Shown: positions 1,102-52,248 of the stretch, in pieces
How positions within the stretch are numbered: position 1 is the stretch's first letter
How the letters are laid out: every line of letters begins with the position of its first letter
Assembly: GCA_002794775.1 (NCBI GenBank)
Contig: NBAY01000065.1
Span: 1-64,000, forward strand
DNA: 64,000 bases
Direction of reading: 5' to 3'
Origin: Porodaedalea pini
Lineage: Eukaryota > Basidiomycota > Agaricomycetes > Hymenochaetales > Hymenochaetaceae
The notes under the pieces: model-generated
The model's input: only the letters and a program-made list of their open reading frames with translations
The model's database searches: none
What the model was told of the DNA's origin: nothing
Program-made: the position numbers and the translations under genes

Positions 1102-1178
1102 CACTTCAGGCCACCCCTTCAAGGAGACCTAATAGGGCAATTCATACACGCAACTAATTGACCTAATAGGTATCATGA
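1102..1178 (+). repeat. E1 left terminus with paired CCTAATAGG motifs
   Basis: Begins CACTTCAGGCCACCCC, mirrored at the right end. CCTAATAGG occurs at 1128-1136 and 1162-1170, 34 bases apart. The same layout with CCTATTAGG occurs in E2. Such paired near-palindromes are plausible transposase-binding sites; that is inference. Confidence 0.8.
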
Positions 1179-1357
1179 CTGGGAGTGCCCAAATCTGCTG
1201 GGTACTCCCAATTGGGCATGCCCAAATCTGCTGGGCACTCCCAATTGGGCACACCCAAATCTGCTGGGCACTCCCAATTGGGCATGCCCAAATCTTCTGG
1301 GCACTCCCAATTGGGCACACCCAATCTGCTGGGCACTCCCAATTGGGTGTTCCCAAA
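1179..1357. repeat. E1 outer tandem array (33-base unit), left copy
   Basis: About five units of roughly 33 bases combine TTGGGCATGCCCAA (a perfect palindrome) or TTGGGCACACCCAA with CTGGGCACTCCCAA. The invariant core is TGGG-N4-CCCA. Open frames through the array (rich in PNWECP-like repeats) are an artefact of the repeat. Confidence 0.85.
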
Positions 1358-1359
1358 TG

Positions 1360-1402
1360 TGTCACTGTCACTGACTGTCTGGGGGACTTTTGGGCACACC
1401 CA
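1360..1402 (+). promoter_or_regulatory. 43-base subterminal block conserved between E1 and E2 (E1 left)
   Basis: Identical over 43 bases to 37975-38017 in E2, and present inverted in both right arms, although the DNA around it differs between elements. It contains GTCACTGTCACTGAC and ends in a TGGG-N4-CCCA core. A bound site needed for mobility or arm maintenance is the simplest inference. Confidence 0.65.
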
Positions 1403-1707
1403 ATTTCATTTTTGCCATAAAATCTGGGACCATTAGAGGCTGTATTTTATTGTTTTTAGCCTTACAATTTAGCACTTTTGCTGTTGATTAGGTTGCAAAC
1501 TACTGGCTGCATGAATTGACCTTTGATCTGAGTTACAGTCATTTGCTGAAGTATTTACAATCACCTTTTTTGCATCTCAGAAAGTGCTCCTTTGGCTTCA
1601 AGAATCAACATTTCACTCAATTCTTCACTAATTCATGTCTAATAAATTGCTAAATACATAGTTTAATTACTGCCAAATATCAATGAGGCAGCAAGTGACA
1701 TGAGAAG

Positions 1708-2104
1708 ATAAAGAGCCTATTCTGTGAAGATTAGGTGTTCAGACAGGCAATATTCTTCCATAATTCTTCCTGAGTTCAAATCTGAAGCTAAAGACATAAA
1801 ACTTGCTAAATAATGATTTATGTAAGCTATTATGATTTTTAGATGTTTCTCTTGGGTGCAGAATAAATACTTAAAGACAGTCAATGCTAAGTAAGTTTGG
1901 CAGAGTTTTAGAGTTTCTGAAGCTAAGACAAACAAGATAGGAAATATACATTTCTATACACAGTCACTGCTTAAAATCATAATAAATCATATAGATCATC
2001 CTTCAGTAAGTTTTATGCCTTTAACTTCAGATTTGAACTAGGGAAGAATCAGTGAAGAATATTGCCTGTCTGAACACCTAAAATTTACAGAATAGGCTCT
2101 TTAT
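1708..2104. repeat. Inverted-repeat (MITE-like) unit, E1 left arm
   Basis: The ends ATAAAGAGCCTATTCTGT and its reverse complement enclose two longer imperfect inverted halves of about 110 bases. No clear target duplication is visible, so it could also be an internally folded part of the arm. Confidence 0.55.
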
Positions 2105-2513
2105 TTTCTTACTTCACTCTTTAATAACCTGTTTAGGAACATTTTTTATAGTATAATAATATGCTTGTACTTGGCTATCATGACATTAGTTATTTGTGTG
2201 TTTAGGTTGTGCTTGTCTTCATAAGAGTGTTACTGAGGTTGTATCACCCTACATTGGCTGCTTGGGTTGACTTGACTAAATGCATATGACATTTTATGAT
2301 AAAATAGTTAATTATTATAGCACTGAATTAGCTCTGTAACAACATCTTCTAGTTATTAGCTGTGCTATTACAAAAGCATTAGCATGTCATTAAAAATGTT
2401 GCTAAAACATTGCCTAAGTTCATAATTATTGCTATTAGTCAAATTATGAATTTAGCTACTTTTCTGATAAGAATTGAGATATTAAAGCCAAAAGAGCACT
2501 CTGTACTTTCCTA

Positions 2514-2843
2514 CAGATGGTTTCAAAAAGTGTTTGGCCCCTCTGCTTTTGGAATTGATTGACATGGCCTAAGCAGGAAGGTGATTTGTATGATTCAAAC
2601 CTCCATTCTGTGCATTCTAACATCTGTCTCCTCATCCTTCAAGCAAAATCAGTCTAGAAAAAAATTATACAGGTATCAATTATATACATACACTCAAGAT
2701 ACATTATTTCCTGTCAAATAATGGAAGAATCATGTATATTCAATGACCAGTGTTTTCTCCCTCATGCTAATCACCTTCCTGCTTAGGCCATGTCAATCGG
2801 TTCCAAAAATGGGGAGGGGCTGAACACTTTTCAGAACCACCTG
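2514..2843. mobile_element. Tc1/mariner-type MITE, E1 left arm
   Basis: Terminal inverted repeats CAGATGGTTTCAAAAAGTGT and CAGGTGGTTCTGAAAAGTGT (right end reversed) are flanked by TA on both sides (2512-2513, 2844-2845). About 330 bases, no coding. A TA duplication with CAG ends is typical of Tc1/mariner-derived MITEs. The mirrored copy is about 320 bases. Confidence 0.75.
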
Positions 2844-3228
2844 TATATATGATATAATATATAATCTTCTATACCATATCATAGGGCTTGTAATACAGAC
2901 TGTACTTTGAGCTAGAAGTTTTAAATATGATTATACCATATACAGTACAGTGCAGAGTGCAAAACTGAAGAGAACAAGAAAAAAAAAATAGATCTGAGGT
3001 CCAAAAAATAGCTAAGCTTGACCTGTGCTCAAATATCAGGTACAACATTTAATGTTCATAAATTTGACTGATGCTTTAGAGACAAGTGTGACAGTATAGA
3101 GACTGCATTCTCAAGTTTATAACTAGAACTGTATATGATAATAATATTGTATATTCTTCTGAGACTAGGTATTACTGAGTGAGACAGAGAAGTTTGATTT
3201 AGTGAGCCTAGAAAACTAGTTTATGGCC

Positions 3229-4003
3229 AGTTGGGAGTGCCCAATCGGGAGCACCCAACTATTGGGAGTGCCCAACTATTTGGGAGTGCCCAACTATTGG
3301 GAGTGCCCAACTATTTGGGAGTGCCCAATTGGGAGTGCCCAACTATTTGGGAGTGCCCAATTGGGAGTGCCCAACTATTTGGGAGTGCCCAATTGGGAGT
3401 GCCCAACTATTTGGGAGTGCCCAATTGGGAGCACCCAACTATTTGGGAGTGCCCAATTGGGAGCACCCAACTATTTGGGAGTGCCCAATTGGGAGTGCCC
3501 AACTATTGGGAGTGCCCAACTATTTGGGAGTGCCCAATTGGGAGCGCCCAACTATTGGGAGTGCCCACTATTTGGGAGTGCCCAATTGGGAGTGCCCAAC
3601 TATTGGGAGTGCCCAACTATTGGGAGTGCCCAACTATTGGGAGTGCCCAACTATTGGGAGTGCCCAACTATTGGGAGTGCCCAACTATTGGAGTGCCCAA
3701 CTATTGGGAGTGCCCAACTATTGGGAGTGCCCAACTATTGGGAGTGCCCAACTATTGGGAGTGCCCAACTATTGGGAGTGCCCAACTATTGGGAGTGCCC
3801 AACTATTGGGAGTGCCCAACTATTGGGAGTGCCCAACTATTGGGAGTGCCCAACTATTGGGAGTGCCCAACTATTTGGGAGTGCCCAATTGGGAGTGCCC
3901 AATTAGGAGCGCCCAACTATTTGGGAGTGCCCAACTATTTAAGAGTGCCCAACTATTGGGAGTGCTCAGGAAGTGCCCAATATTTGGAAGTGCCCAGTTG
4001 GGT
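3229..4003. repeat. E1 inner tandem array (17-base unit), left copy
   Basis: The dominant unit CCCAACTATTGGGAGTG repeats many times, with variants in which TTGGGAGTGCCCAA units abut to form CCCAATTGGG. Core TGGG-N4-CCCA throughout, N4 mostly AGTG. All three frames stay open for over 200 codons, which reflects the repeat and not a gene. The right-arm copy is only about 450 bases long. Confidence 0.9.
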
Positions 4004-4687
4004 CTCCTTTTTATTCCTGCCCAGGAATCTTTTTTATTTTATTTTTGAAATAGAAATCATTATGTCATGAAAATTAGAATATGTCTAGAATAGAAGCCTT
4101 GGTAATTCTACAGAGAATTTCTCAATCTTTCATTCTAGACTCTTATGTCACTGCCTTGCTTTCACTGGTGGCAGGTGGTCTTGACTCATGCATCTCTTAA
4201 GAGGCTAACCCAACTGCTTATATCACAATGTCAAAGCAACTGTTTCACAAGGCCTATTCTCAAGACCACCTGTGGAGGGCACCTGCACATACCACACAAC
4301 TGGGTCTGACACATCGGTGGCTCTTTGCTGCATTTCACCATAAGCTGTGATAGCTCTGCCTCATCCATCTCAGGCATCACCTTGAGCTGTACAAGCCAAA
4401 TGGCTGGTACAAGGTAGAATAATAAAGTAGTTGCATGCATAAAACCTGCTTTCATTTCATTTTGATGATGAGGTTGCTGCCCTGCTCCTCAATAGTGCTC
4501 TGTATCTTCTCAATTGCACACTCAAGATGCTCAGTTGCCATGTAGTGCAAACTCAAAATAAATATAAAGTGAGACAATTACAACAAACACAGTGTACCTT
4601 GTCAGTAGCATGTGTACCCAGCATATAGAGAGGTGGCACAATGAGCCTTTGACGAGAGAGACACCTTGCCTTCCCTCTTATCCAACT
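4004..4687. other. Unrecognised arm segment with a 40-base cyclin stub at its inner edge
   Basis: No gene is identified in most of this stretch. The inner edge (about 4647-4687) matches a cyclin piece that is continuous with the rest of the cyclin in E2 (about 41535-41575), so it is the far side of a cyclin gene split by the XPB insertion. Short frames on the minus strand (4231-4455) look exon-like but match nothing I know. Confidence 0.45.
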
Positions 4688-7361
<2,674 letters not shown>

Positions 7362-7443
7362 TGTTCACCTGCCGTTGTCTGTGACCGATTCTGACTCAGT
7401 GGTAGCTCACGTTTGAACGTTCTTCGTTAAAAAGTCAGTTCGC

Positions 7444-8163
7444 CGGCTCGCCCCTCACTCCCGTGCTGAGCTTCTTCTCCGCGAGCCCCGTCACCTTCCC
7501 TCGCACCACCCCGATGTAGCAGAGCGCCGACTGCAGGACGCTACGTCTCGTGCATGAACGGCGAGGCGAGTGCGATGCAACGCGTATGCGACGAAGTGCG
7601 CAAGCATATTCGGTATCACTGGTGCCCCTCCTGATCCTGCTGTTGCGGTAGCGGGGGAACGCGAGACGACTGCGGTCGAGGACGATGTGGAAGAGGTGGA
7701 GGACGACGGAGGAAGGATCTCGGGGCAGTTGAAGGTATGGCTGACGAAGCGCGCGCAGAGCTTGCTGGTGTCTTCGTGCCCGTAGTAAGTGTCGATTGCC
7801 GGTGGGGGTGCTGCCGGCGTGGGGTGGTGTGAGTGATGTGCGCGCGGGACTGCCGATGACTGTTTTTTTGTCGAACGTTTTCGGCGCAGTCGGAGGAAAA
7901 AAACGTGATAGAGAAAAAGACAGCGATCAACAGCCGCTCATCACTCAAGTATCAGAGATCGGGGGGAAAGAGGGGGGATGCTTACAAAACTCGAGGTAGT
8001 CGCTGCGGCAGCGGCGGACACAGAAGACGATTTCGCAGGTGGAGGGGGGCGTACGTCGCACCACGCGGCGGAAGGGCGAGTGGTTCGAGCTGGCACTCGA
8101 TGATGATATCGAATGCTGATGCGGATGGGGGTGGGGATGGCGCGGTGCGTGGACGATGGCCAT
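7444..8163 (-). pseudogene. Pas1/Pcl-type cyclin fragment, E1 left arm
   Basis: Reads from an ATG at 8163 (MAIVHAPRHPHPHPH) through a Ser/His-rich N-terminus, an intron starting GTAAGC, then a cyclin-box start: YYGHEDTSKLCARFVSHTF, LAHFVAYALHRTRL and, in another frame, SVLQSALCYI. Such cyclins partner Pho85-type kinases. The gene is interrupted at about 7443 by the XPB copy; its continuation is a 40-base stub at 4647-4687. E2 holds a longer, uninterrupted copy. Frame changes show it is dead. Confidence 0.7.
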
Positions 8164-8442
8164 ATTCGCTGCGGCGGGCTCTCTGGCTCTGGGCGTTGAC
8201 GAGCATCTGTGAGCGTCGAAGGACAGGTGGAGTCGATGCGTGAGAAGAGGTCGCTGCGAATGTTTTGATCGGAACGAGATCCTTCTCGGACACAACGGTT
8301 GCGTCGCGTTCGCCGAAGTACTCAATGAGAAGGGCGGATGGGAAAACGGCTGACGTCGATGTTGAAGAGCGTGGATCGTCAAGGGGGGCAGGAGGAAGAG
8401 GCGAGGAACGCGTGCTGTGTGAACAGGGTGAGGGAAGTTGAA
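8164..8442 (-). other. Unidentified captured segment between cyclin and eS6
   Basis: Coding-like composition with one frame reading EYFGERDATVVSEKDLVPI, reminiscent of a PWWP-type reader domain but too short to assign. Present in both E1 and E2 in the same place, so it belongs to the shared backbone. It may instead be upstream DNA of the cyclin. Confidence 0.35.
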
Positions 8443-8673
8443 CCGCACCAGTGCGGCAGAGATGGAGGGAAGAATGACCAGCAGAAAGGAGCACCCTGCT
8501 TCATCGGGAAGCCCTGCTTGTCGTTTCCGCCAGAGAAGCGAAAGACGTAGCCCTTGGACTCATCACCGAGCGAGTCACCGGGGATGCCTGGGACATCTTC
8601 TTGCCGTGGAAGATGCGGTAACGACGCTCATCGTCGATGTCGATCGTCTTTTGCTGGCCCGTCGCCGGGTCAG
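8443..8673 (-). pseudogene. Ribosomal protein eS6 fragment, E1 left arm
   Basis: eS6 is a small-subunit ribosomal protein. The piece reads [26 protein letters not shown], then in shifted frames FKGYVF and [15 protein letters not shown], matching the conserved N-terminal part of eS6. Frameshifts and loss of the rest make it non-functional. Compared with E2, two internal stretches are deleted, but the join that Hsp90 interrupts in E2 is intact here. Confidence 0.85.
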
Positions 8674-9487
8674 CGATGTCAACACTTCATGGCCGGTGGT
8701 GTCTTGAGGAGCTCGTCGTGTTCTGTCCCTTCAGGCAAGCAAAAAAATGCTGAAAAGTAGTTATTAGTATATTTAGATGGGTTTTATGAATATTTTTTTT
8801 GCTTACCTTGAGTGTGTGGCTAGTGGGACACCTGAGCTCGTCGTCGATGGTGAAGACGAAACGATACGAACAACGACGACGCGTTGGTTGTGTTGCCTGA
8901 TTTGGCCGATCGACACGTCTTAAACAAGCAATCAAAGCATTCCGAGTCTTTCGGACATCTCGAAAGACTTAGCTGTCTAGCTCAGAACATTTCTACAGAC
9001 GCGTTTAAAAATACAAAAAAATATGGGATAGTTTTATTATGTATGTATCTCTAGAATAGCCAAGAGTTACGCGTCCAACGCGTTTTTTTATGGTGTTATA
9101 AATACAACAGTAATCCTCACATGTAGCACTAGGCCTCCAGAGGCATACACCAAAGTAAAATATATTCTGAAAGGCCTGACACCTATTCTGTCATGAAGTA
9201 AGTATTACACTTTGTATGTATGCAAGGGTTCAAGCCAATCAGACAAGAATTGACTTCATAATAGAGAAGGAGGTGACTTCATGAGATCTCCTGAATCTGA
9301 GTGTTTTGTATATCCTGTTCCCATTTTTTACTTTGATGGCACATAAAATATTGGGCATATCCAGAATAGATATTTCTATGTTTCTGTAAATTTACAAGTT
9401 TCCAGCCTCAGTGGTTGGAGCTGGGTGAATTGCAAAACATCGAAAATCTTGGGTTTAAGAGGTTCAGAGAAAGCATATATTCATGTT
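8674..9487. other. Inner arm region conserved between E1 and E2 (left copy)
   Basis: No gene is recognised. The segment is similar to 44000-44801 in E2 and includes a short intron-like stretch (GTAAGC...TACTAATAAC...CAG on the reverse strand), repeated ACGCGT motifs around 8999-9085, and the arm end at ATATATTCATGTT. Conservation in both elements suggests it belongs to the element proper and not to recent captures. Confidence 0.6.
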
Positions 9488-9805
9488 GTTGCTTTATTCC
9501 AAACCTCAGGAAGCTCTATAAAATAGATATTAATACTTTATATGACTACAATAAATGTAATCAGGTGCTAGATCTCGGAGTTAGAGGAAAGTTCTGAAGG
9601 GGAGAGGAAATACATGCAAAACTACTCTGTGTTTCTTGGATTTGCGTCGAGTTTCACAAAACATGAACTGTATCACCTCTCATTTCACTCCCCATTCCGA
9701 ACTTTTCCCTCACCCACAAAACTAAGGGTTGGATATCTTTCTTGGACCATACTTAAATACAAATAACTAAATTTGTTGAGCTTCTCATACTTTGAACCAA
9801 CCAAA
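9488..9805. other. E1 central loop (unique 318-base spacer)
   Basis: The only non-palindromic part of E1. No coding is seen. The E2 loop (44802-45120) is nearly the same sequence on the opposite strand, so this short stretch is the only part that gives the element an orientation. Confidence 0.8.
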
Positions 9806-10619
9806 AACATGAATATATGCTTTCTCTGAACCTCTTAAACCCAAGATTTTCGATGTTTTGCAATTCACCCAGCTCCAACCACTGAGGCTGGAAACTTGTA
9901 AATTTACAGAAACATAGAAATATCTATTCTGGATATGCCCAATATTTTATGTGCCATCAAAGTAAAAAATGGGAACAGGATATACAAAACACTCAGATTC
10001 AGGAGATCTCATGAAGTCACCTCCTTCTCTATTATGAAGTCAATTCTTGTCTGATTGGCTTGAACCCTTGCATACATACAAAGTGTAATACTTACTTCAT
10101 GACAGAATAGGTGTCAGGCCTTTCAGAATATATTTTACTTTGGTGTATGCCTCTGGAGGCCTAGTGCTACATGTGAGGATTACTGTTGTATTTATAACAC
10201 CATAAAAAAACGCGTTGGACGCGTAACTCTTGGCTATTCTAGAGATACATACATAATAAAACTATCCCATATTTTTTTGTATTTTTAAACGCGTCTGTAG
10301 AAATGTTCTGAGCTAGACAGCTAAGTCTTTCGAGATGTCCGAAAGACTCGGAATGCTTTGATTGCTTGTTTAAGACGTGTCGATCGGCCAAATCAGGCAA
10401 CACAACCAACGCGTCGTCGTTGTTCGTATCGTTTCGTCTTCACCATCGACGACGAGCTCAGGTGTCCCACTAGCCACACACTCAAGGTAAGCAAAAAAAA
10501 TATTCATAAAACCCATCTAAATATACTAATAACTACTTTTCAGCATTTTTTTGCTTGCCTGAAGGGACAGAACACGACGAGCTCCTCAAGACACCACCGG
10601 CCATGAAGTGTTGACATCG
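9806..10619. other. Inner arm region, right copy
   Basis: Mirror of 8674-9487 with very few differences. No gene recognised. Confidence 0.6.
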
Positions 10620-10850
10620 CTGACCCGGCGACGGGCCAGCAAAAGACGATCGACATCGACGATGAGCGTCGTTACCGCATCTTCCACGGCAAGAAGATGT
10701 CCCAGGCATCCCCGGTGACTCGCTCGGTGATGAGTCCAAGGGCTACGTCTTTCGCTTCTCTGGCGGAAACGACAAGCAGGGCTTCCCGATGAAGCAGGGT
10801 GCTCCTTTCTGCTGGTCATTCTTCCCTCCATCTCTGCCGCACTGGTGCGG
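10620..10850 (+). pseudogene. Ribosomal protein eS6 fragment, E1 right arm
   Basis: Same fragment as in the left arm, reading toward the outside of the element: [20 protein letters not shown] followed by frameshifted [13 protein letters not shown]. Dead copy. Confidence 0.85.
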
Positions 10851-11129
10851 TTCAACTTCCCTCACCCTGTTCACACAGCACGCGTTCCTCGCCTCTTCCT
10901 CCTGCCCCCCTTGACGATCCACGCTCTTCAACATCGACGTCAGCCGTTTTCCCATCCGCCCTTCTCATTGAGTACTTCGGCGAACGCGACGCAACCGTTG
11001 TGTCCGAGAAGGATCTCGTTCCGATCAAAACATTCGCAGCGACCTCTTCTCACGCATCGACTCCACCTGTCCTTCGACGCTCACAGATGCTCGTCAACGC
11101 CCAGAGCCAGAGAGCCCGCCGCAGCGAAT
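10851..11129 (+). other. Unidentified captured segment, right copy
   Basis: Mirror of 8164-8442, with the same EYFGERDATVVSEKDLVPI reading. Not assigned. Confidence 0.35.
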
Positions 11130-11850
11130 ATGGCCATCGTCCACGCACCGCGCCATCCCCACCCCCATCCGCATCAGCATTCGATATCATCATCGAGTGC
11201 CAGCTCGAACCACTCGCCCTTCCGCCGCGTGGTGCGACGTACGCCCCCCTCCACCTGCGAAATCGTCTTCTGTGTCCGCCGCTGCCGCAGCGACTACCTC
11301 GAGTTTTGTAAGCATCCCCCCTCTTTCCCCCCGATCTCTGATACTTGAGTGATGAGCGGCTGTTGATCGCTGTCTTTTTCTCTATCACGTTTTTTTCCTC
11401 CGACTGCGCCGAAAACGTTCGACAAAAAAACAGTCATCGGCAGTCCCGCGCGCACACCACTCACACCACCCCACGCCGGCAGCACCCCCACCGGCAATCG
11501 ACACTTACTACGGGCACGAAGACACCAGCAAGCTCTGCGCGCGCTTCGTCAGCCATACCTTCAACTGCCCCGAGATCCTTCCTCCGTCGTCCTCCACCTC
11601 TTCCACATCGTCCTCGACCGCAGTCGTCTCGCGTTCCCCCGCTACCGCAACAGCAGGATCAGGAGGGGCACCAGTGATACCGAATATGCTTGCGCACTTC
11701 GTCGCATACGCGTTGCATCGCACTCGCCTCGCCGTTCATGCACGAGACGTAGCGTCCTGCAGTCGGCGCTCTGCTACATCGGGGTGGTGCGAGGGAAGGT
11801 GACGGGGCTCGCGGAGAAGAAGCTCAGCACGGGAGTGAGGGGCGAGCCGG
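11130..11850 (+). pseudogene. Pas1/Pcl-type cyclin fragment, E1 right arm
   Basis: Mirror of the left copy: ATG at 11130, His/Ser-rich N-terminus, intron from about 11309, then TYYGHEDTSKLCARFVSHTF and LAHFVAYALHRTRL. It ends at GAGCCGG (11844-11850), exactly where the XPB fragment begins. Scattered substitutions distinguish it from the left copy. Confidence 0.7.
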
Positions 11851-11931
11851 CGAACTGACTTTTTAACGAAGAACGTTCAAACGTGAGCTACCACTGAGTC
11901 AGAATCGGTCACAGACAACGGCAGGTGAACA

Positions 11932-14607
<2,676 letters not shown>

Positions 14608-37974: not shown

Positions 37975-38017
37975 TGTCACTGTCACTGACTGTCTGGGGG
38001 ACTTTTGGGCACACCCA
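37975..38017 (+). promoter_or_regulatory. 43-base conserved block (E2 left)
   Basis: Matches E1 1360-1402 base for base. Confidence 0.65.
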
Positions 38018-39500: not shown

Positions 39501-39793
39501 ACTTATTATCTTTTTTAATTTCTGCCTAAGATTTTTTTTTCGTTTTTTGAGAAGTAAAAACTGTTATGTCATGAAAATCAAATGGGTCTAGAATAGAAGT
39601 CTTGAATATTCTATGGAGAATTTCTCAATCATTTTACTATAGGCTCTGAATCTTAGCTGCCTTGCTCTGAAGACCAATCAATACACTGCAAGCCACTGCA
39701 GGTCAGATGACAATGTTGTTTGATGTGAAAGCAAAAGAAAGTAATGTTTGCTGTGCACTGAGCACTGCATGTTGGTGAGCTACAATGACCATA
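39501..39793. other. Gene-free arm segment (left)
   Basis: Nothing recognised; a short stretch resembles E1 near 4060-4130 (GTCATGAAAATYARA, GTCTAGAATAGAAG), so it belongs to the shared outer backbone. Confidence 0.5.
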
Positions 39794-40840: not shown

Positions 40841-41159
40841 GTCTTCCTCACAGTCTGGACCTGGTTCTTCTGCATGGTGATGGTGATGTCGATGTGACGC
40901 TCTGGGATAGATGCACGGCCGCGTCATCTGGCAGCGTCGCAGCACATCTAAGTGCCCTGTTTGCCATGCCTGCCTTCGTCCTCACATGACCAAACTCCGG
41001 GCTTGCGCCTGCATCTGACAAGGGTGGACTCGGGAAGTGCATCACGTTGTGCACTGCAGAAACCGGAGACGATCCAAATGCGCTTGCACCCTAGCTTTTC
41101 ATGTGTTGCATGCCGCGTGACTGCTCTTCCTGCGGCGGCGTAGTACTCTTGCCGACCCA

Positions 41160-42268
41160 GAGACGCGGTCCTAGGGCATCGCCCAGTGCGCGTTCGCGGC
41201 GTCCAACCACATGTGATGGGACCGGAGAGATTCACCCATGTTCGATTTGAATAGCATCGATCCTGTAATGATTTCGATACGAGAGTGAGTGCGGCGACGA
41301 AAGTGCGCCGCGGGCGAAGAAGCGGCAATGACAGAGGTGACAGCGGTGTGAGCGGTTTTGCAAGGATCTTACGACGCTTGTCATTAGACTGCCTTTGAGT
41401 CTGCATCTGCTGAGTGGATGGAAGCGAAGCGTCCATCTGGTAGACTGTCGGCACGCGCGATCTGTCGGAGGGGTCCATTGACGTCAGCTCTGTCAGAAAA
41501 CCGCAGGGGTTGGACGTGTCCGAAGAGGTATTCGCCTTTGACGAGAGAGACACCTCGCCTTCCCTCTTATCCAACTCCGGCTCGACCCGTCACCTTCCCC
41601 CGCACCGCCCCGATGTAGCAGAGCGCCGACTGCAGGACGCTACGTCTCGTGCGTGAACGGCGAGGCGAGTGCGATGCAACGCGTATGCGACGAAGTGCGC
41701 AAGCGTATTCGGTATCACTGGTGCCCCTCTTGATCCTGCCATTGCGGTAGCGGGGGGCACGCAAGACGACTGCGGTCGAGGACGATGTGGAAGAGGTGGA
41801 GGACGACGGAGGAAGGATCTCGGGGCAGTTGAAGGTATGGCTGACGAAGCGCGCACAGAGCTTGCTGGTGTCTTCGTGCCCGTAGTAAGTGGCGACTGCC
41901 GGTGGGGGTGCTGCCGGCGCGGGGTGGTGCGAGTGGTGTGCGCGCGGGACTGCCGATGACTGTTTTTTGTCGAACGTTTTCGGCGCGGTCGGAGGAAAAA
42001 AAACGCGATAGAGAAAAAGACACCGATCAACAGCCGCTCATCACTCAATTATCAGAGATCGGGGGGAAAGAGGGGGGACGCTTACAGAACTCGAGGTAGA
42101 TGCTGCGGCAGCGGCGGACGCAGAAGACGATTTCGCAGGTGGAGGCGGGGCGTACGTCGCGCGGTGCACGCGCCGGAAGGGCGAGTGGTTCGAGCTGGCA
42201 CTCGATGATGATATCGAATGCTGATGCGGATGGGGGTGGGGATGGCGCGGGGCGTGGACGGTGGCCAT
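41160..42268 (-). pseudogene. Pas1/Pcl-type cyclin, longer copy, E2 left arm
   Basis: MATVHAPRHPHPHPH start, intron, TYYGHEDTSKLCARFVSHTF, LAHFVAYALHRTRL, SVLQSALCYIGAVRGKV, then LDKREGEVSLSSK and a late cyclin-box segment RRTFVAALTLVSKSLQDRCY. The junction GAGCCGG-AGTTGGATAAGAG is continuous here, whereas E1 carries XPB at exactly this point. Several frame changes; a dead copy. Confidence 0.75.
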
Positions 42269-42536
42269 ATTCGCTGCGGCGGGCTCTCTGGCTCTAGGCG
42301 TTGACGAGCGTCTGTGAGCGTCAAAGGACAGGTGGAGTTGATGCGTGAGAAGAGGTCGCTACGAATGTTTTGATTGGAACGAGATCCTTCTCGGACACAA
42401 CGGTTGCGTCGCGTTCGCCGAAGTGCGCAGTGAGAAAGGCAGATGAGAAAACGGCTGACGTCGATGTTGAGGCGTGTGGAACATTGGCGGGGGCAGAAGG
42501 AAGAGGTGAGGAATGCGTCCCAGGTGAACAGGGCGA

Positions 42537-42860
42537 GGGAAGTTGAACCGCTCGACGGTTTCGGTAGATGTCGCCAGTCCCTCCCTGCCTGACAATGACG
42601 AGAGAGAGGACAGCGACGTTGCGACCGATGATGCAGCCACGGGCCGGCTTGCACTTTCTCACCAGTGCGGCAGAGACGGTAGCAAGAGTGACCAGCAGAA
42701 AGGAGAAGGCGAGCAGTTAGGAATGAGTACACCCTGCTTCATCGGGAAGTCCTGCTCGTCGTTTCCGCCAGAGACGCGGAAGACGTGGCCCTTGAACTCA
42801 TCACCGAGCAAGTCGCTGGGGACACCTGGGACATCTTCTTGCCGTGGAAAATGCGGTAAC
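42537..42860 (-). pseudogene. eS6 fragment, outer part, E2 left arm
   Basis: [34 protein letters not shown] and [19 protein letters not shown], in shifted frames. Longer than in E1. It stops at GGTAACGAC, where the Hsp90 piece begins. Confidence 0.8.
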
Positions 42861-43950
42861 GACCACCTCGCTATGAAGCACTTCTCGGTAGAAGGTCAGC
42901 TCGAATTCAAGGCTATTCTCTACATTCCGAAGCGGTGAGTCTCCTTGCTGGCCTTGCTATGAACCTGTTTCTGACGTCTCTTTTAGCGCACCGTTCGACC
43001 TCTTCGAGTCCAAGAAGAAGCGTAACAACATTAAGCTCTACGTCCGCCCCGTCTTCATTATGGACGACTGCGAGGATCTCATCCCCGAGTACCTTAACTT
43101 CGTCAAGGGTATCGTCGACTCTGAAGATCTCCCGCTCAACATCTCGCGTGAGACGCTCCAGCAGAACAAGATTCTCAAGGTCATCCGCAAGAACATCGTG
43201 AAGAAGTGCCTCGACCTCATCCAGGAGATCTCGGAGGACAAGGACAATTTCAAGAAGTTCTACGAGGCGTTCGGCAAGAGCCTCAAGCTTGGTATCCACG
43301 AGGATGCGCAGAACCGCAGCAAGCTCGCCGAGTTCCTCCGCTTCTACTCGACGAAGTCGACTGAGGAGCAGGTCTCGCTGAAAAAGGGTACGTGTTCAAG
43401 CGGCGGCCCTGTTCCATTATTTGGTTACTGACAGCTTACCGCAGACTACATCACGCGGATGCCTGAGATTCAGAAGTCCATCTACTACCTCACTGGCGAG
43501 TCGCTCAATGCCGTCAAGGACTCTCCCTTCCTTGAGGTTCTCAAGAAGAAGGGCTTCGAGGTACTCCTGCTTGTTGACCCGATCGACGAGTACGCCGTCA
43601 CTCAGCTCAAGGAGTTCGACGGTCACAAGCTCGTGTGCGTGTCGAAGGAGGGTCTGGAGCTCGAGGAGACCGAAGAGGAGAAGAAGGAGCGCGAGAGTGA
43701 GGCCTCGCAGTTCGAGGAGCTCTGCAAGGTCGTCAAGGATGCGCTCGGCGACAAGGTCGAGAAGGTCGTCATCTCGAACCGCGTCGCCGACTCACCATGT
43801 GTGCTTGTCACCGGCCAGTTCGGCTGGTCCGCAAATATGGAGCGCATCATGAAGGCGCAGGCGCTTCGCGACTCGTCAATGTCATCGTACATGGCGTCGA
43901 AGAAGACGCTTGAGTTTAACCCGCACAACGCGATCATCAAGGTCCTTCGA
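42861..43950 (+). pseudogene. Hsp90 middle/C-terminal fragment, E2 left arm
   Basis: Hsp90 is an ATP-dependent chaperone. This piece starts [20 protein letters not shown] and continues through [60 protein letters not shown] and [20 protein letters not shown], ending [12 protein letters not shown]. Two introns (about 42936-42986 and 43387-43444) are retained with intact splice signals, and the exons are open, unlike older cargo. The N-terminal ATPase domain and the C-terminal end are missing, so no chaperone activity is expected. It lies inside the eS6 remnant, opposite in strand. Confidence 0.92.
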
Positions 43951-44801
43951 TGTTGATCGTCTTTTGCTGGCCCATCGCCAGGTCAGCGATGTCGACACTT
44001 CATGGCCGGTGGTGTCTTGAGGAGCTCGTCGTGTTCTGTCCCTTCAGGCAAGCAAAAAAAATGATGAAAAGTAATTATTAGTATATTCAAATAGTTTTTA
44101 TGATTATTTTTTTTGCTTACCTTGAGTGTGTGGCCGGTGGGACAGCCGTGCTCGTCGTCGATGGTGAAGACGAAACGACACGAACAACGACGACGCGTTG
44201 GTTGTGTTGCCTAATTTGGCCGATCGCCGCGTCTCAAACAAGCAATCAAAGCATTCCGATTCTTTCGGAAATCTCGAAAGTCTCAGCTGTTGGCCTCAAA
44301 CAAATTCTACGGACGCGTTTAAAAATACAAAAAAATACGGAATAGTTTTATTATGTATGTATCTCTATCATAGCCAATAATTACGCGTCAAACGCGTTTT
44401 TTTATGGAGTAATAAATACAACAGTAATCTTGACATGCAGCACCAGGCCTCCAGAAGCATACACAAAAGTACAATATACCCTGAAAGGCCTGGCACCTAT
44501 TCTATCATGAAGTAAGTGATACATTTTGTATGCATGCAAGGTTTCAAGCCAATCAGACATGAACTGACTTCATAATAGAGAAGGAGGTGGTTTCATGAGA
44601 TCTTCTGAATCTGAGTGTTTTGTATATCCTGTTCCCACTTTCTACTTTGATGGCACATAAAATATTAAGCATATCCAGAATGGATATGTCTATGTTTCTG
44701 TAAGTTTACAAGTTTCCAGCCTCAGTGGTTGGAGCTGGGTGAATTGAAAAACATCGAAAAGCATGGTTTTTAGAAGTTCAGAGAAAGCATATATTCATGT
44801 T
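43951..44801. other. eS6 N-terminal stub and conserved inner arm region, E2 left
   Basis: The first 50 bases continue the interrupted eS6 (reverse strand GDGPAKDDQ in a shifted frame). The remainder resembles E1 8700-9487, with ACGCGT motifs and the same arm end ATATATTCATGTT. Confidence 0.65.
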
Positions 44802-45120
44802 TTTAGTTGGTTCACAGTATGAGAAGCTCAACAAAATTAGTTATTTGTATTTAAGTATGCTGCAAGAAAGATATCCAGTCCTTAGTTTTGTGGGTGAGGA
44901 AAAAGTTCGGAATTGGGAGTGAAATGAGAGGTGATACAGTTCATGTTTTGTGAAACTCGACACAAATCCAAGAAACACAGAGCAGTTTTGCATGTATTTC
45001 CTCTGCCCCTTCAGAACTTTCCTCTAACTCCGAGATCTAGCACCTGATTACATTTATTGTAGTCATATAAAGTACTAATATCTATTTTATAGAGCTTCCT
45101 GAGGTTTGGAATAAAGCAAC
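44802..45120. other. E2 central loop (319 bases)
   Basis: Non-palindromic and without coding. Closely related to the E1 loop read on the opposite strand. Confidence 0.8.
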
Positions 45121-45971
45121 AACATGAATATATGCTTTCTCTGAACTTCTAAAAACCATGCTTTTCGATGTTTTTCAATTCACCCAGCTCCAACCACTGA
45201 GGCTGGAAACTTGTAAACTTACAGAAACATAGACATATCCATTCTGGATATGCTTAATATTTTATGTGCCATCAAAGTAGAAAGTGGGAACAGGATATAC
45301 AAAACACTCAGATTCAGAAGATCTCATGAAACCACCTCCTTCTCTATTATGAAGTCAGTTCATGTCTGATTGGCTTGAAACCTTGCATGCATACAAAATG
45401 TATCACTTACTTCATGATAGAATAGGTGCCAGGCCTTTCAGGGTATATTGTACTTTTGTGTATGCTTCTGGAGGCCTGGTGCTGCATGTCAAGATTACTG
45501 TTGTATTTATTACTCCATAAAAAAACGCGTTTGACGCGTAATTATTGGCTATGATAGAGATACATACATAATAAAACTATTCCGTATTTTTTTGTATTTT
45601 TAAACGCGTCCGTAGAATTTGTTTGAGGCCAACAGCTGAGACTTTCGAGATTTCCGAAAGAATCGGAATGCTTTGATTGCTTGTTTGAGACGCGGCGATC
45701 GGCCAAATTAGGCAACACAACCAACGCGTCGTCGTTGTTCGTGTCGTTTCGTCTTCACCATCGACGACGAGCACGGCTGTCCCACCGGCCACACACTCAA
45801 GGTAAGCAAAAAAAATAATCATAAAAACTATTTGAATATACTAATAATTACTTTTCATCATTTTTTTTGCTTGCCTGAAGGGACAGAACACGACGAGCTC
45901 CTCAAGACACCACCGGCCATGAAGTGTCGACATCGCTGACCTGGCGATGGGCCAGCAAAAGACGATCAACA
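45121..45971. other. Inner arm region, E2 right
   Basis: Mirror of 43951-44801. Confidence 0.65.
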
Positions 45972-47061
45972 TCGAAGGACCTTGATGATCGCGTTGTGCG
46001 GGTTAAACTCAAGCGTCTTCTTCGACGCCATGTACGATGACATTGACGAGTCGCGAAGCGCCTGCGCCTTCATGATGCGCTCCATATTTGCGGACCAGCC
46101 GAACTGGCCGGTGACAAGCACACATGGTGAGTCGGCGACGCGGTTCGAGATGACGACCTTCTCGACCTTGTCGCCGAGCGCATCCTTGACGACCTTGCAG
46201 AGCTCCTCGAACTGCGAGGCCTCACTCTCGCGCTCCTTCTTCTCCTCTTCGGTCTCCTCGAGCTCCAGACCCTCCTTCGACACGCACACGAGCTTGTGAC
46301 CGTCGAACTCCTTGAGCTGAGTGACGGCGTACTCGTCGATCGGGTCAACAAGCAGGAGTACCTCGAAGCCCTTCTTCTTGAGAACCTCAAGGAAGGGAGA
46401 GTCCTTGACGGCATTGAGCGACTCGCCAGTGAGGTAGTAGATGGACTTCTGAATCTCAGGCATCCGCGTGATGTAGTCTGCGGTAAGCTGTCAGTAACCA
46501 AATAATGGAACAGGGCCGCCGCTTGAACACGTACCCTTTTTCAGCGAGACCTGCTCCTCAGTCGACTTCGTCGAGTAGAAGCGGAGGAACTCGGCGAGCT
46601 TGCTGCGGTTCTGCGCATCCTCGTGGATACCAAGCTTGAGGCTCTTGCCGAACGCCTCGTAGAACTTCTTGAAATTGTCCTTGTCCTCCGAGATCTCCTG
46701 GATGAGGTCGAGGCACTTCTTCACGATGTTCTTGCGGATGACCTTGAGAATCTTGTTCTGCTGGAGCGTCTCACGCGAGATGTTGAGCGGGAGATCTTCA
46801 GAGTCGACGATACCCTTGACGAAGTTAAGGTACTCGGGGATGAGATCCTCGCAGTCGTCCATAATGAAGACGGGGCGGACGTAGAGCTTAATGTTGTTAC
46901 GCTTCTTCTTGGACTCGAAGAGGTCGAACGGTGCGCTAAAAGAGACGTCAGAAACAGGTTCATAGCAAGGCCAGCAAGGAGACTCACCGCTTCGGAATGT
47001 AGAGAATAGCCTTGAATTCGAGCTGACCTTCTACCGAGAAGTGCTTCATAGCGAGGTGGTC
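45972..47061 (-). pseudogene. Hsp90 middle/C-terminal fragment, E2 right arm
   Basis: Exact mirror of the left copy, with the same introns and junctions. Two identical copies at mirrored sites imply that the arms were made from one another after Hsp90 was acquired. Confidence 0.92.
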
Positions 47062-47385
47062 GTTACCGCATTTTCCACGGCAAGAAGATGTCCCAGGTGT
47101 CCCCAGCGACTTGCTCGGTGATGAGTTCAAGGGCCACGTCTTCCGCGTCTCTGGCGGAAACGACGAGCAGGACTTCCCGATGAAGCAGGGTGTACTCATT
47201 CCTAACTGCTCGCCTTCTCCTTTCTGCTGGTCACTCTTGCTACCGTCTCTGCCGCACTGGTGAGAAAGTGCAAGCCGGCCCGTGGCTGCATCATCGGTCG
47301 CAACGTCGCTGTCCTCTCTCTCGTCATTGTCAGGCAGGGAGGGACTGGCGACATCTACCGAAACCGTCGAGCGGTTCAACTTCCC
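47062..47385 (+). pseudogene. eS6 fragment, outer part, E2 right arm
   Basis: Mirror of 42537-42860. Confidence 0.8.
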
Positions 47386-47653
47386 TCGCCCTGTTCACCT
47401 GGGACGCATTCCTCACCTCTTCCTTCTGCCCCCGCCAATGTTCCACACGCCTCAACATCGACGTCAGCCGTTTTCTCATCTGCCTTTCTCACTGCGCACT
47501 TCGGCGAACGCGACGCAACCGTTGTGTCCGAGAAGGATCTCGTTCCAATCAAAACATTCGTAGCGACCTCTTCTCACGCATCAACTCCACCTGTCCTTTG
47601 ACGCTCACAGACGCTCGTCAACGCCTAGAGCCAGAGAGCCCGCCGCAGCGAAT
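47386..47653 (+). other. Unidentified captured segment, E2 right arm
   Basis: Matches E1 10851-11129 (HFGERDATVVSEKDLVPIK frame). Its mirror is 42269-42536. Not assigned. Confidence 0.35.
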
Positions 47654-48762
47654 ATGGCCACCGTCCACGCCCCGCGCCATCCCCACCCCCATCCGCATCA
47701 GCATTCGATATCATCATCGAGTGCCAGCTCGAACCACTCGCCCTTCCGGCGCGTGCACCGCGCGACGTACGCCCCGCCTCCACCTGCGAAATCGTCTTCT
47801 GCGTCCGCCGCTGCCGCAGCATCTACCTCGAGTTCTGTAAGCGTCCCCCCTCTTTCCCCCCGATCTCTGATAATTGAGTGATGAGCGGCTGTTGATCGGT
47901 GTCTTTTTCTCTATCGCGTTTTTTTTCCTCCGACCGCGCCGAAAACGTTCGACAAAAAACAGTCATCGGCAGTCCCGCGCGCACACCACTCGCACCACCC
48001 CGCGCCGGCAGCACCCCCACCGGCAGTCGCCACTTACTACGGGCACGAAGACACCAGCAAGCTCTGTGCGCGCTTCGTCAGCCATACCTTCAACTGCCCC
48101 GAGATCCTTCCTCCGTCGTCCTCCACCTCTTCCACATCGTCCTCGACCGCAGTCGTCTTGCGTGCCCCCCGCTACCGCAATGGCAGGATCAAGAGGGGCA
48201 CCAGTGATACCGAATACGCTTGCGCACTTCGTCGCATACGCGTTGCATCGCACTCGCCTCGCCGTTCACGCACGAGACGTAGCGTCCTGCAGTCGGCGCT
48301 CTGCTACATCGGGGCGGTGCGGGGGAAGGTGACGGGTCGAGCCGGAGTTGGATAAGAGGGAAGGCGAGGTGTCTCTCTCGTCAAAGGCGAATACCTCTTC
48401 GGACACGTCCAACCCCTGCGGTTTTCTGACAGAGCTGACGTCAATGGACCCCTCCGACAGATCGCGCGTGCCGACAGTCTACCAGATGGACGCTTCGCTT
48501 CCATCCACTCAGCAGATGCAGACTCAAAGGCAGTCTAATGACAAGCGTCGTAAGATCCTTGCAAAACCGCTCACACCGCTGTCACCTCTGTCATTGCCGC
48601 TTCTTCGCCCGCGGCGCACTTTCGTCGCCGCACTCACTCTCGTATCGAAATCATTACAGGATCGATGCTATTCAAATCGAACATGGGTGAATCTCTCCGG
48701 TCCCATCACATGTGGTTGGACGCCGCGAACGCGCACTGGGCGATGCCCTAGGACCGCGTCTC
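47654..48762 (+). pseudogene. Pas1/Pcl-type cyclin, longer copy, E2 right arm
   Basis: Mirror of 41160-42268. Confidence 0.75.
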
Positions 48763-49081
48763 TGGGTCGGCAAGAGTACTACGCCGCCGCAGGAAGAGCA
48801 GTCACGCGGCATGCAACACATGAAAAGCTAGGGTGCAAGCGCATTTGGATCGTCTCCGGTTTCTGCAGTGCACAACGTGATGCACTTCCCGAGTCCACCC
48901 TTGTCAGATGCAGGCGCAAGCCCGGAGTTTGGTCATGTGAGGACGAAGGCAGGCATGGCAAACAGGGCACTTAGATGTGCTGCGACGCTGCCAGATGACG
49001 CGGCCGTGCATCTATCCCAGAGCGTCACATCGACATCACCATCACCATGCAGAAGAACCAGGTCCAGACTGTGAGGAAGAC

Positions 49082-50128
49082 ACGCTACTTTTGCTCTAGC
49101 TGCGTCTCATTGAGCCGGCTTTCAAGTGGGAAGTGCTGCCTAACCTTATTGCGCACGACCCTTACTTCAGCAGCTGGAACCAGACGATCTTCGGCAATGC
49201 CTCTGATTGAAAGGCCATGGACCCTGTCCCGTATTTCATGGATGGTGCCAGTGGTATGCTTGATGCCTGCCGTCAAGTCAAAGAGTGCATAAGGCCTTTG
49301 CGTATGTCTACCGCATGACGAACGATTCATTGTGAGTTGACCGTACCTGGCTAGAGCTCCAGGTTTGGCTCATTATATAATTTGCATCCTCATACATGCT
49401 GATATGTTGTACTTGCAGAATGCTGCTGGCAATGGCTCGACCTCATGGGATCCCGCTGTTGACAGGTGGAGTCCTGCTCATTTTCTTGACACTGCTGAAA
49501 TGTCCGCCGCTTTTGGTATTGCTTACAACTAGCTTTACGACATGTGGGCTGATGACAAGAAGGAGATGATCTGGTCCACTTTGAACCAGTATGGTCTGTC
49601 CCTTGGCATTGCTGCTCTGGCACAGGGCACGAATGGCTGGTGGTCAGATGCTGATATTAAGGGTAACTGGAACTGTGTTTGCAATGGTGGTCTCACTTTG
49701 GCATCTCTCACCATCCTTAGTGATGACATGACTGGAAACACAGTGCAGCTTCTTCCTCTTACTGTTGCGAATGCGAAGGAGAACTGCTTTGCTGTCTCAG
49801 ATGATGGTTTGTGGGTGGAGACAGCAAACTAAAAAACTATTGGTACTTCGGAATGACTGGCTAGTCTGAGATGACCTCTTCGCTTGTGTCAGCAACTGGT
49901 TCGGAGTTCGGCATGTTCAGTAACAACCCAAACTTGAACCTCAGTGGTTTTTTGCACATGTATATTCAGGGTGTGACTTTGCTTTTCAACTACAGTGACC
50001 ATGGCCCCAACAAGTACACTGCTACCATGAACTCGCTCATTTTCCTGGCGGATCAGTCCAACTCCCCAAGCTATGCTCTGTACCAACATGATCAGTATGA
50101 TGCTGCTGACCCTTGGAGCATGTTCTAG
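49082..50128 (+). pseudogene. Heparinase II/III-like remnant, E2 right arm
   Basis: Mirror of 39794-40840, with the same stops and insertion. Confidence 0.8.
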
Positions 50129-50422
50129 TATGGTCATTGTAGCTCACCAACATGCAGTGCTCAGTGCACAGCAAACATTACTTTCTTTTGCTTTCACATC
50201 AAACAACATTGTCATCTGACCTGCAGTGGCTTGCAGTGTATTGATTGGTCTTCAGAGCAAGGCAGCTAAGATTCAGAGCCTATAGTAAAATGATTGAGAA
50301 ATTCTCCATAGAATATTCAAGACTTCTATTCTAGACCCATTTGATTTTCATGACATAACAGTTTTTACTTCTCAAAAAACGAAAAAAAAAATCTTAGGCA
50401 GAAATTAAAAAAGATAATAAGT

Positions 50423-50835
50423 AGCTAGGCACACCCAACTGGGTATTCCCAAATAGTTGGGAGTGCCCAACTGGGTGTACCCAGATGGTTGGGAGTGCCC
50501 AACTGGGCATACCCAGATGGTTGGGAGTGCCCAACTGGGCATACCCAGATGGTTGGGAGTGCCCAACTGGGCATACCCAAATAATTGGGAGTGCCCAACT
50601 GGGCGTACCCAAATAATTGGGAGTGCCCAACTGGGCATGCCCAAATAATTAGGAGTGCCCAACTGGGCATACCCAAATAATTAGGAGTGTCCAACTGGGC
50701 ATGCCCAAATAATTGGGAGTGCCCAACTGGGCATACCCAAATAATTGGAAGTGCCCAACTGGGCATACCCAATGTATCTGGGAATACCTAGCTAGACACT
50801 CTCAAATGTTTTAGGCACATCCAACTGGACACCTC
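50423..50835. repeat. E2 inner tandem array, right copy
   Basis: Mirror of 39088-39500. Unlike E1, the array length is the same in both arms. Confidence 0.88.
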
Positions 50836-50942
50836 CAAATCTTTGTATATACCTAAGATATCTAGGCTCTCTCAGTCAGGCTCTCCTTTTCATCTCAGTA
50901 GTATCTAATCTTATTTCTCTTTGCAGTAATAAATTGATCCTA

Positions 50943-51469
50943 TGTAGAAGGCACCTAGATAGTGCCAACACTTGAGCCCACAAGACAGACAGGACAAAAC
51001 AATATTTGTTGCTGTCAGAGAGACTGAGGCAACAAAGGCATCAGAAAGGGTTCAAATAGGAAGGATTATATAATATGAACTATACAGTACCAGTCTGAAA
51101 GGAATCTGTTGAGAATTACTCTCAGAATGCATAAATCTTTAGTATATGTCTGCCAAAGGATCACTTGACTCAGTGCAAGTGCATATGAGCTTTGAATGAG
51201 TTCATATTAGCTTTGGATGGGTTGGGGAGTGAAGGGAATATGAAAAGAATATAAATAGAATATAATGTGCTATGCTCCAAATGTCCAGAGGCTATGCTGC
51301 CACCAAGTTTCAGGCTCAGACTCAGTGCAGTCATGGTATGGATGTATGGTGGCCTTCTGGAGTTTGTGCATCTTGGAATATCAGCAGCTCAGTACCTCAG
51401 AGTCATGACATGATGTCCAGCCAGTTGATGTTAAGTCAGATGTGGTAAAAATGCTCTGGTGGGCTTACA
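50943..51469. repeat. LTR piece in the E2 right arm
   Basis: Mirror of 38454-38980; related to the solo LTR at 31222-31862. Confidence 0.65.
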
Positions 51470-51905
51470 GAAGCTGCTCAATTTGAGAATGAATGTAGAG
51501 CTCAAGAATCAACCATGAGGTTCTAGCTTGATTGTTATGACCTAAGGGAGAAGAAAGTTTTAGCAATAGAATTGAGATTTGAACTTTGAAGTAGAATGAA
51601 GTCCTAAATAAAATAAATAAAATTTGAGCTTGATTGAGGTCAAGATACATTCAAAACTGAGCTCAAAGCTTAATCAAACAACTTGCTATTTGCACTTGAC
51701 AATGGGTATTCTGCAATAGCAAGCTCAGATGTCAATATAATTGACTTTCATACTTTATAATGTCTACAAGCTATATACAGAGCTTAAAATAGCAGATGCA
51801 CATTCAGCATGCAACCTATATTTATATATGCATCTATGAAGCCATTAGAAGTATACAGCTGAAGAAGAAAATAAAAAAATAAAAGGGGAGGGAGGGATGA
51901 TTTTC

Positions 51906-51948
51906 TGGGTGTGCCCAAAAGTCCCCCAGACAGTCAGTGACAGTGACA
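51906..51948 (-). promoter_or_regulatory. 43-base conserved block (E2 right)
   Basis: Reverse complement of 37975-38017, unchanged. Confidence 0.65.
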
Positions 51949-52172
51949 TATCTGGGTACTCCCAGGGCATGCCCACCTGGGTACACCCAAAAAATTGGGC
52001 ATGCCCATATGGGCACACCCAGAAAATTGGGCATGCCCACCTAGGAACATTGGGGAGGCCCAGTTGGGAGTGCCCTAGAAACTGGGTAGGCCCAATTTTC
52101 CCACAGTAATTACAATTAGGTATACCCAGCTCACACCCACTGGGTGCACCCAGGAAATTGGGTACACCCAAA
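51949..52172. repeat. E2 outer array, right copy
   Basis: Mirror of 37751-37974. Confidence 0.75.
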
Positions 52173-52248
52173 CCTGACCCCTAATAGGCTAATTATCTGT
52201 GTGTAAGAATTAGCCTAATAGGTCTACTTTTAGGGGTAGCCTGAAGTG
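52173..52248 (-). repeat. E2 right terminus
   Basis: Ends GGGGTAGCCTGAAGTG; mirror of the left terminus. Confidence 0.8.

Follow-up and report, generated by a model that had tools for sequence, protein, structure and literature searches.

Two giant palindromes on one contig

The first 64,000 nucleotides of contig NBAY01000065.1 of the basidiomycete Porodaedalea pini (assembly GCA_002794775.1; this whole stretch is here called the window, and its contig C65) contain two very long palindromes, E1 at 1102–17865 (16,764 bp) and E2 at 37675–52248 (14,574 bp), neither assigned a strand, which are probably non-autonomous DNA transposons of the KDZ superfamily in foldback form. An inverted-repeat search placed the left arm of E1 at 1102–9502 (+), its loop at 9503–9790 (+; 288 nt) and its right arm at 9791–17865 (–), while the corresponding parts of E2 lie at 37675–44813 (+), 44814–45108 (–; 295 nt) and 45109–52248 (–). 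The loops are 96% identical and oppositely oriented. Within E2 the arms match perfectly over 39532–44813/45109–50390 (5,282 nt, 100%, with 295 nt between) and 37675–39548/50375–52248 (1,874 nt, 100%). In E1 the inner repeat 5569–9502/9791–13724 (3,934 nt, 100%, with 288 nt between) is followed outward by 3889–5573/13722–15406 (99%) and 1102–2987/15980–17865 (100%), and the main difference between the arms is a tandem array of the unit TTGGGAGTGCCCAACTA, which occupies 3231–3965 (+) on the left and a shorter mirror position, 15330–15695, on the right. Inverted repeats so long and so nearly identical cannot be due to chance, and since they make up nearly the whole of each element around a short middle, E1 and E2 have the form of foldback elements.

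The two elements are alike in several separate parts. Their first 60 bases are alike by eye, and BLAST comparisons found a common core of inner arm, loop and inner arm (~2.03 kb, 91.9% identity; 8634–10659 in E1 and 43947–45975 in E2, no strand assigned). A second common block of 967 bp (93% identity, and 95% in elements of the third type described below) is GC-rich, unstranded, and present in both arms: at 7487–8446 with its mirror at 10847–11806 in E1, and at 41586–42551 with its mirror at 47371–48336 in E2. Apart from core, block and termini, what the arms have in common is subterminal tandem repeats (~73–80%). A short subterminal array of TGGGCA-type repeats lies at 1186–1358 (+; mirror 17609–17781) in E1, and E2 has a tandem array with a 32-bp unit at 39151–39489 (+; mirror 50434–50772). 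Rfam at gathering scores gave no match in the whole window, and Pfam, applied to four frames within or next to the GC-rich block and to a neighboring E2 frame, returned only MASE2 below the cutoff (E = 0.012).

The initial annotation, made from the sequence of the window, had described two related giant foldback elements with 7–8-kb arms, sharing termini, subterminal motifs, inner arm and loop, differing in cargo and lacking a transposase; all of this agrees with our results, given arms of ~8.1–8.4 kb in E1 and 7.1 kb in E2, the resemblances just listed, the XPB pieces in E1 and HSP90 in E2, and the empty KDZ search of the window (see below). It had also put the conserved loops at about 318 bases: their conservation is borne out, and their length is slightly less, at 288 and 295 nt in the inverted-repeat search, or ~304–313 nt by BLAST borders.

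A dispersed family with target duplications

Genome-wide scans covered the 53.3-Mb assembly of 201 contigs that holds the window, and elements outside the window are called here by the handles of their contigs (C2, C28 and so on). The E1 loop, as part of the query, yielded 52 candidates, and each of the best 40, E1 and E2 included, matched at 94–100%. A terminus pattern with up to three mismatches matched 65 times in forward and 58 times in reverse orientation (123 in total), the reversed control pattern once in each. Pairing inward-facing termini by eye around loops delimited many elements of ~12.6–17 kb with the loop near the center, and asymmetric ones reaching 28 kb. The terminus variants are mainly of three types, the E1-type CCACCCCTTCAAG, the E2-type CTACCCCTAAAAG and a third type CTACCCCTCTGAG, whose arms measure ~6.3 kb where symmetric; in its representative C35 the outer 2.5 kb of the two arms are 99.96% identical and the center is a palindrome 92–95% identical to the cores of E1 and E2. 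The arrangement is palindromic at most of the places probed: a probe from the HSP90 segment of E2 had exactly one forward and then one reverse match in 19 of 21 places (among the best 40 of 44 candidates), and an inner-arm probe one forward and then one reverse form in 18 of 22 (among the best 40 of 219 candidates). The union of loop, HSP90-probe and inner-arm-probe places comes to at least 49. E1 and E2 thus belong to a dispersed, multi-copy family of palindromes, and the prospect, raised at the outset, that no other genomic copies with these termini and loop would be found is contradicted by the 40 scored loop places and 123 terminus matches.

We compared the flanks of 33 terminus-bounded elements, including C2 and C28. 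Exact target duplications were present in 22 of them (16 of 7 bp and six of 8 bp), and the remaining 11 comprised two with 7 bp and one mismatch, one with 6 bp, and eight with none. On either side of E2 stands one copy of an exact 8-bp target duplication, atcaagga (37667–37674 and 52249–52256, both +), whereas E1 has no matching flanks and so no target duplication of its own. The duplications identify the elements as transposed DNA rather than inverted duplications of host sequence.

Two other assignments were set aside. The CACTA/EnSpm/Plavaka group is suggested by ends that start with CACT, but its target duplications are 2–5 bp long (PMC12730594, in its available text), not 7–8 bp. As for Helitron and Starship elements, terminal inverted repeats (TIRs) together with target duplications suit a cut-and-paste element.

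Relation to KDZ transposons

Two larger elements of this assembly encode KDZ transposases between comparable ends. The 29.6-kb element C2 (C2:501266–530822) encodes CxC1 (E = 3.5e–6) and KDZ (E = 8.1e–54) domains, has inverted repeats of ~4 kb at 94.9–98.5% identity, and is flanked by an 8-bp target duplication; C28 (C28:3533–25584) has a KDZ match at 19200–19916 (E = 6.6e–59), inverted repeats of at least 2.5 kb at 97.3% identity, and likewise an 8-bp target duplication. With the C2 KDZ exon as query, 613 proteins were found at E = 0.001 or better, and the best 120 of these were 59–72% identical, all 120 with the KDZ domain. A Ty3-like gag frame lies within the C2 element (L037:6949–8127); a retrotransposon may sit there and inflate its length.

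The KDZ domain search gave 77 matches in the assembly and none in the window (C65:1–64000), hence none inside E1 or E2. Elsewhere on the window's contig, two pairs of KDZ matches (C65:69976–70766 and C65:123065–123855) have near-identical scores 53 kb apart. MULE domains had no match in the assembly, in a search positive for three of 14 control genomes, and P-type RNase H transposases had none either, in a search for which no control genome was positive.

What ties the palindromes to these elements is their ends. The terminal ~343 bp of E2 (37675–38017, +; mirror 51906–52248) are 95–96% identical to the end of C2 (94.8% over the first 252 bp and 96.1% over the adjoining 102 bp), and the first 229–239 bp of the third-type element C35 are 96.5–97.1% identical to the end of C28. 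Identity between the ends of E2 and of C28 is ~75%, save for one 71-bp stretch at 91.5%. Despite such differing ends the cores of E1, E2 and C35 are mutually 92–95% identical, and one core with three end types means that ends and core are separate modules with different histories. We infer that the palindrome carriers may have acquired their ends from different KDZ families.

Captured host genes

E2 carries an HSP90 fragment with two introns at 42861–43946 (+; mirror 45977–47062, –). In the one E2 copy compared, this 1.09-kb segment and the apparent host gene (C3:769757–771424) have 95.6% identity; the presence of introns implies capture as DNA. Over 284 comparable codons, excluding an insertion of 3 bp and one altered base at a splice donor, we counted 26 silent and six replacement changes and no stop. 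HSP90 matches elsewhere in the genome contain stops in some copies, for example C116, C125 and C121. The silent bias would fit a source copy of HSP90 that had diverged before its capture, or else some constraint.

The cargo of E1 derives from XPB/ERCC3: a C-terminal helicase fragment with stops at 4685–5335 (–; mirror 13960–14610, +) and N-terminal fragments at 6154–7301 (–; mirror 11992–13139, +), of which 6154–6678 is a firm match and 6867–7301 a weak one, below the cutoff. The apparent host counterpart, with which the cargo DNA shares 94% identity over 2.2 kb, lies at C6:1203209–1203946. In four arms (E1 left and right, C122 left and C30 left) the C-terminal stretch is 90.8–90.9% identical to the host, with 27–28 silent and 20–24 replacement changes, 1–3 of them stops; some of these counted changes are non-coding, because the stretch holds a short intron-like insert. 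Judged by such changes the XPB cargo is evidently decaying, and many of them are of the type expected from C-to-T change. The mostly silent changes in the HSP90 cargo form a contrast with this decay that we leave unexplained. The XPB probe also gave further rows elsewhere in the assembly at 83–89% identity.

The six E1-type elements that were read have one cargo in common, as do the six E2-type elements; in the third type HSP90 was seen in C3, C25 and C46, with no match for the others among the best 40 of 44 candidates. Since cargo is common within types, capture looks rarer than copying.

Copying between the two arms

Under plain inheritance the two arms of one element should differ from each other at least as much as do the arms of separate elements. 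This expectation was examined in six E1-type and six E2-type elements (of ~49) by aligning their arms with tandem arrays masked, an earlier comparison of BLAST pieces having overcounted array differences; the nearest copy means the nearest arm among these 12 elements. Outside the tandem arrays the E2 arms have no difference in 6,773 aligned sites and the E1 arms 21 in 7,418. Over the whole arm, the own partner was nearest in five of the 12, with own-arm vs. nearest-copy differences over ~6.7 kb of 0/4 (E2), 1/4 (C37), 0/13 (C49), 1/4 (C51) and 0/16 (C86). Over the inner half the own partner was nearest in seven of the 12, namely all six E2-type elements and C30, with two ties (C122 and C44) and three cases to the contrary (E1, C83 and C24b). 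The inner arms of C30 have nine differences in 4,385 sites, vs. at least 17.5 per kb to every other sampled copy.

With the HSP90 probe the two arms had equal scores in 15 of the 19 elements that had both arms among the matches, though the elements differed from one another, and with the XPB probe in four of eight (C54, C122, C44 and C21); the arms of C21 score alike, yet each is 5% from E1. Tandem-array lengths are unequal between own arms in C49 (708/740), C51 (708/644) and C105 (389/421, all between fixed alignment columns), even where, as in C49, the arms have no or hardly any other difference; the arms must thus have been assembled as separate sequences.

As own arms are in these cases nearer than the arms of other copies, we conclude from the alignments that copying between arms evidently occurs. 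Its route would be gene conversion or foldback-primed repair, which the data fit alike. We claim no gradient of conversion from the center outward, because the inner half is also the less divergent in most comparisons between copies.

Possible exchange between copies

Some arms are closest to those of another element. The own arms of E1, C83 and C24b (C24:176814–193792) differ at 15–25 sites, while the E1 left arm differs from the C24b right arm at two sites, the E1 right arm from the C83 left arm at five, and the C83 right arm from the C24b left arm at two. The E1 left flank carries half of a target duplication, ataatttc (1094–1101, +), the other half of which adjoins C24b on the right. An uninterrupted site joining these two flanks, with one mismatch, is present at C76:2340–2359; identity to this site is 96.9% for the E1 left flank (255 bp) and 100% for the C24b right flank (252 bp), with an 8-bp overlap between the two, and this asymmetry in identity is unexplained. 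The E1 right flank and C24b left flank do not match the C76 site. The joining pattern had 10 further matches with two or three mismatches, including the junction of C24b itself, and the control one, so that the C76-like site may lie in repeated DNA.

From these flanks and arms, E1 and C24b look like exchange products following insertion at a C76-like site. A simple reciprocal exchange was rejected, as the E1 right flank (aggccgg) and C24b left flank (cgtgtcg) do not match; with these flanks left unpaired, more than one event is needed. E1 thus looks like a chimera, whether through exchange with another copy or through an assembly misjoin. In C30, the right outer arm is near C122 (3 per kb) and the left outer arm 30 per kb away, as if one arm had been replaced, to judge from these distances.

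A further sharing of flanks concerns C105, whose left flank (L035, C105:149–1148) is 99.8% identical over 1 kb to the right flank of E2 (52249–53248), which suggests that both haplotypes are present in the assembly, or that the E2 insertion was duplicated, with a different far side.

A possible mechanism and its alternatives

The account that we consider probable starts from the KDZ transposases encoded by elements such as C2 and C28. These proteins would mobilize the palindromes in trans by binding their terminal ~240–340 bp and TGGGCA-type arrays, and a core gaining the ends of another KDZ family could then use the transposase of that family. The pieces of host genes came in as DNA, together with their introns. 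The arms would be kept alike by the copying of one from its partner, whether through foldback-primed repair or through gene conversion induced by a hairpin or a break, so that cargo taken into one arm would be doubled and the arm pair would evolve together. The long common arms would also permit exchange between copies, giving rise to elements without matching target duplications, E1 perhaps among them. More tentatively, the elements may be self-homogenizing carriers, whose ~2.1-kb core with its conserved loop would copy one arm onto the other, thereby doubling captured host genes and keeping them identical, and would swap outer ends so as to draw on the transposases of different KDZ families; if transcribed into long double-stranded RNA, the mirror arms, with their HSP90 exons and KDZ ends, could also damp host genes or rival transposons.

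Several observations weigh against the account by KDZ mobilization and arm copying. By eye, among ~100 of the 123 termini, we noticed no KDZ-containing element with E1-type (CCACCCCTTCAAG) ends, and we infer mobilization of the palindromes in trans by KDZ solely from the common ends. The whole-arm test fails in six of the 12 elements (E1, C83, C24b, C122, C30 and C105), with C44 a tie: own-arm differences number 21 in E1, 15 in C83 and 25 in C24b, vs. two to the nearest foreign arm; C105 has five own vs. four nearest, C122 one vs. none, and C30 12.8 vs. 10.8 per kb. Several of the supporting counts are also small, such as the 0 vs. 1–5 of the E2-type inner halves. Finally, C83 combines an exact target duplication with unlike arms, and copying is thus not obligatory at each move.

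That last case also bears on a somewhat doubtful alternative, in which each transposition rebuilds the palindrome, for instance through foldback-primed synthesis that starts at a hairpin end, and all arm differences arise after insertion. Five E2-type elements with 0–1 arm differences, yet mutually different, would suit such rebuilding, and it has been proposed that inverted duplications can arise through foldback priming at breaks (PMC10622511, in its available text). The arm variants of C83, however, recur in E1 and C24b, so that its differences seem to predate insertion.

If instead a few master palindromes had spread recently, the arms would be alike through youth, with no copying between them. 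Low overall divergence fits this, as do C122 and C44, nearly identical in all arms, and the six of 12 elements whose own arms are not nearest over the whole arm. We nonetheless consider it unlikely, given the counts in C49 and C86 (none within vs. 13 and 16 to the nearest) and in the inner arms of C30 (nine vs. at least 62), and given HSP90-probe scores that are equal between arms in 15 of 19 elements and differ between elements.

Assembly artefact, producing all or only the chimeric palindromes from fold-back reads or from joins of near-identical copies, could account for the eight of 33 elements without matching target duplications and for the resemblance of E1, C24b and C83 to arm swaps via a near-identical center. 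A fold-back read would not yield the exact duplications on two different flanks seen in 22 of the 33, and own arms that differ in tandem-array length and at single sites were resolved separately; we regard this explanation as improbable.

Hardly credible is another type of foldback element, Mutator-like or P/Galileo-like, with KDZ likeness limited to the ends: although Galileo shows 7-bp duplications and includes chimeric copies whose duplications do not match (PMC3573991) and Tm1 is a foldback family of Mutator type with duplications of 9 bp (PMC3169594, both in their available text), neither MULE nor P-type matches were found in the assembly (the latter in a search with no positive control), and E2-like and third-type ends are present on KDZ-containing elements.

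Comparison with known systems

The comparisons that follow are with the available text of the papers cited. With the KDZ (Kyakuja-Dileera-Zisupton) transposons of fungi the palindrome family shares the CA..TG termini and the 7–8-bp target duplications, and KDZ and CxC1 domains are present in an element with these ends (C2). Kyakuja elements of Laccaria have 7-bp duplications and CA..TG ends without TIRs, and Zisupton has 8-bp duplications (PMC12730594); KDZ1–3 of Cryptococcus have TIRs of 139–241 bp and duplications of 8 bp (KDZ1) or 4–8 bp (KDZ2/3) (PMC12810828). The TIRs found here are of ~4 kb (C2) or at least 2.5 kb (C28), vs. 139–241 bp or none, and E1 and E2 differ further in consisting of arms and loop only.

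Among foldback elements, Galileo (P superfamily, Drosophila) also has long TIRs with tandem repeats, transposase-less copies consisting of two TIRs, and chimeric copies, but belongs to another superfamily; its longest TIR is ~1.26 kb (Drosophila mojavensis), and gene cargo is not described in that text (PMC3573991). Tm1 (Mutator/Foldback) of root-knot nematodes has foldback TIRs, groups with and without transposase, and the gene Cg-1 inside one member; it differs in its 9-bp duplications, its Mutator-like transposase, its size (one element is of 1,080 bp) and a TIR pair identity of 93% on average (PMC3169594).

The Pack-TYPE elements of plants (Pack-MULE, Pack-CACTA and others) are non-autonomous DNA transposons with pieces of host genes (PMC8903248), and our elements are like them in behavior only, having captured host gene fragments (HSP90 with introns, and XPB) at the DNA level. 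Pack-TYPE elements belong to plant superfamilies, and the main text of PMC8903248 mentions neither KDZ nor fungi; cargo in the form of two inverted copies is not described in its available text. Palindromes of sex chromosomes likewise have long arms kept alike by gene conversion (PMC7023750), but they are immobile, whereas the relatives of E1 and E2 are dispersed with common ends and target duplications.

In the available text of a review of giant eukaryotic transposons, KDZ, Zisupton and 'palindrom' do not occur, and the open-licence papers searched, as far as their text was available, contained no KDZ foldback family with arms this long. Foldback and gene-capturing DNA transposons were thus already known; new with respect to that literature are the KDZ base, the unusual size, the common core, the differing ends and the copying between arms. 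The initial view of the palindromes as a distinct, cargo-collecting family without described equivalent is partly supported: they do form a distinct, multi-copy, gene-carrying family that lacks its own transposase, but ends and duplications tie it to KDZ transposons, so that it is not an orphan type; cargo is collected at the DNA level, from genes with host counterparts, by a capture that looks rarer than copying; and the lack of an equivalent holds within the open-licence literature searched.

Other features of the window

Between the palindromes, ~318 bp at 31435–31749 resemble a segment of the E2 arm (38601–38918) at 87% identity, and an arm stretch that overlaps this segment has 81% matches close to both ends of C2. 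A minisatellite with a 47-bp unit lies at 30424–30644. Two gene stretches beside the palindromes, 24178–27475 and 59184–63011, encode proteins that are alike by eye, and one of them has a weak protein-kinase match below the cutoff. Open frames at 57105–58730 resemble by eye a remnant of a DDE-type transposase or endonuclease; two pieces tested had no Pfam match.

Implications

If the proposed account is true, DNA transposons would keep near-perfect mirror arms of 6–9 kb over time and in many copies, as is otherwise discussed for palindromes on sex chromosomes, and gene capture would be coupled to automatic inverted duplication. End-swapping would then be a way for a transposon parasite to change its helper. 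Numerous copies of different ages within a single genome make the family a natural data set for conversion between arms and exchange between copies.

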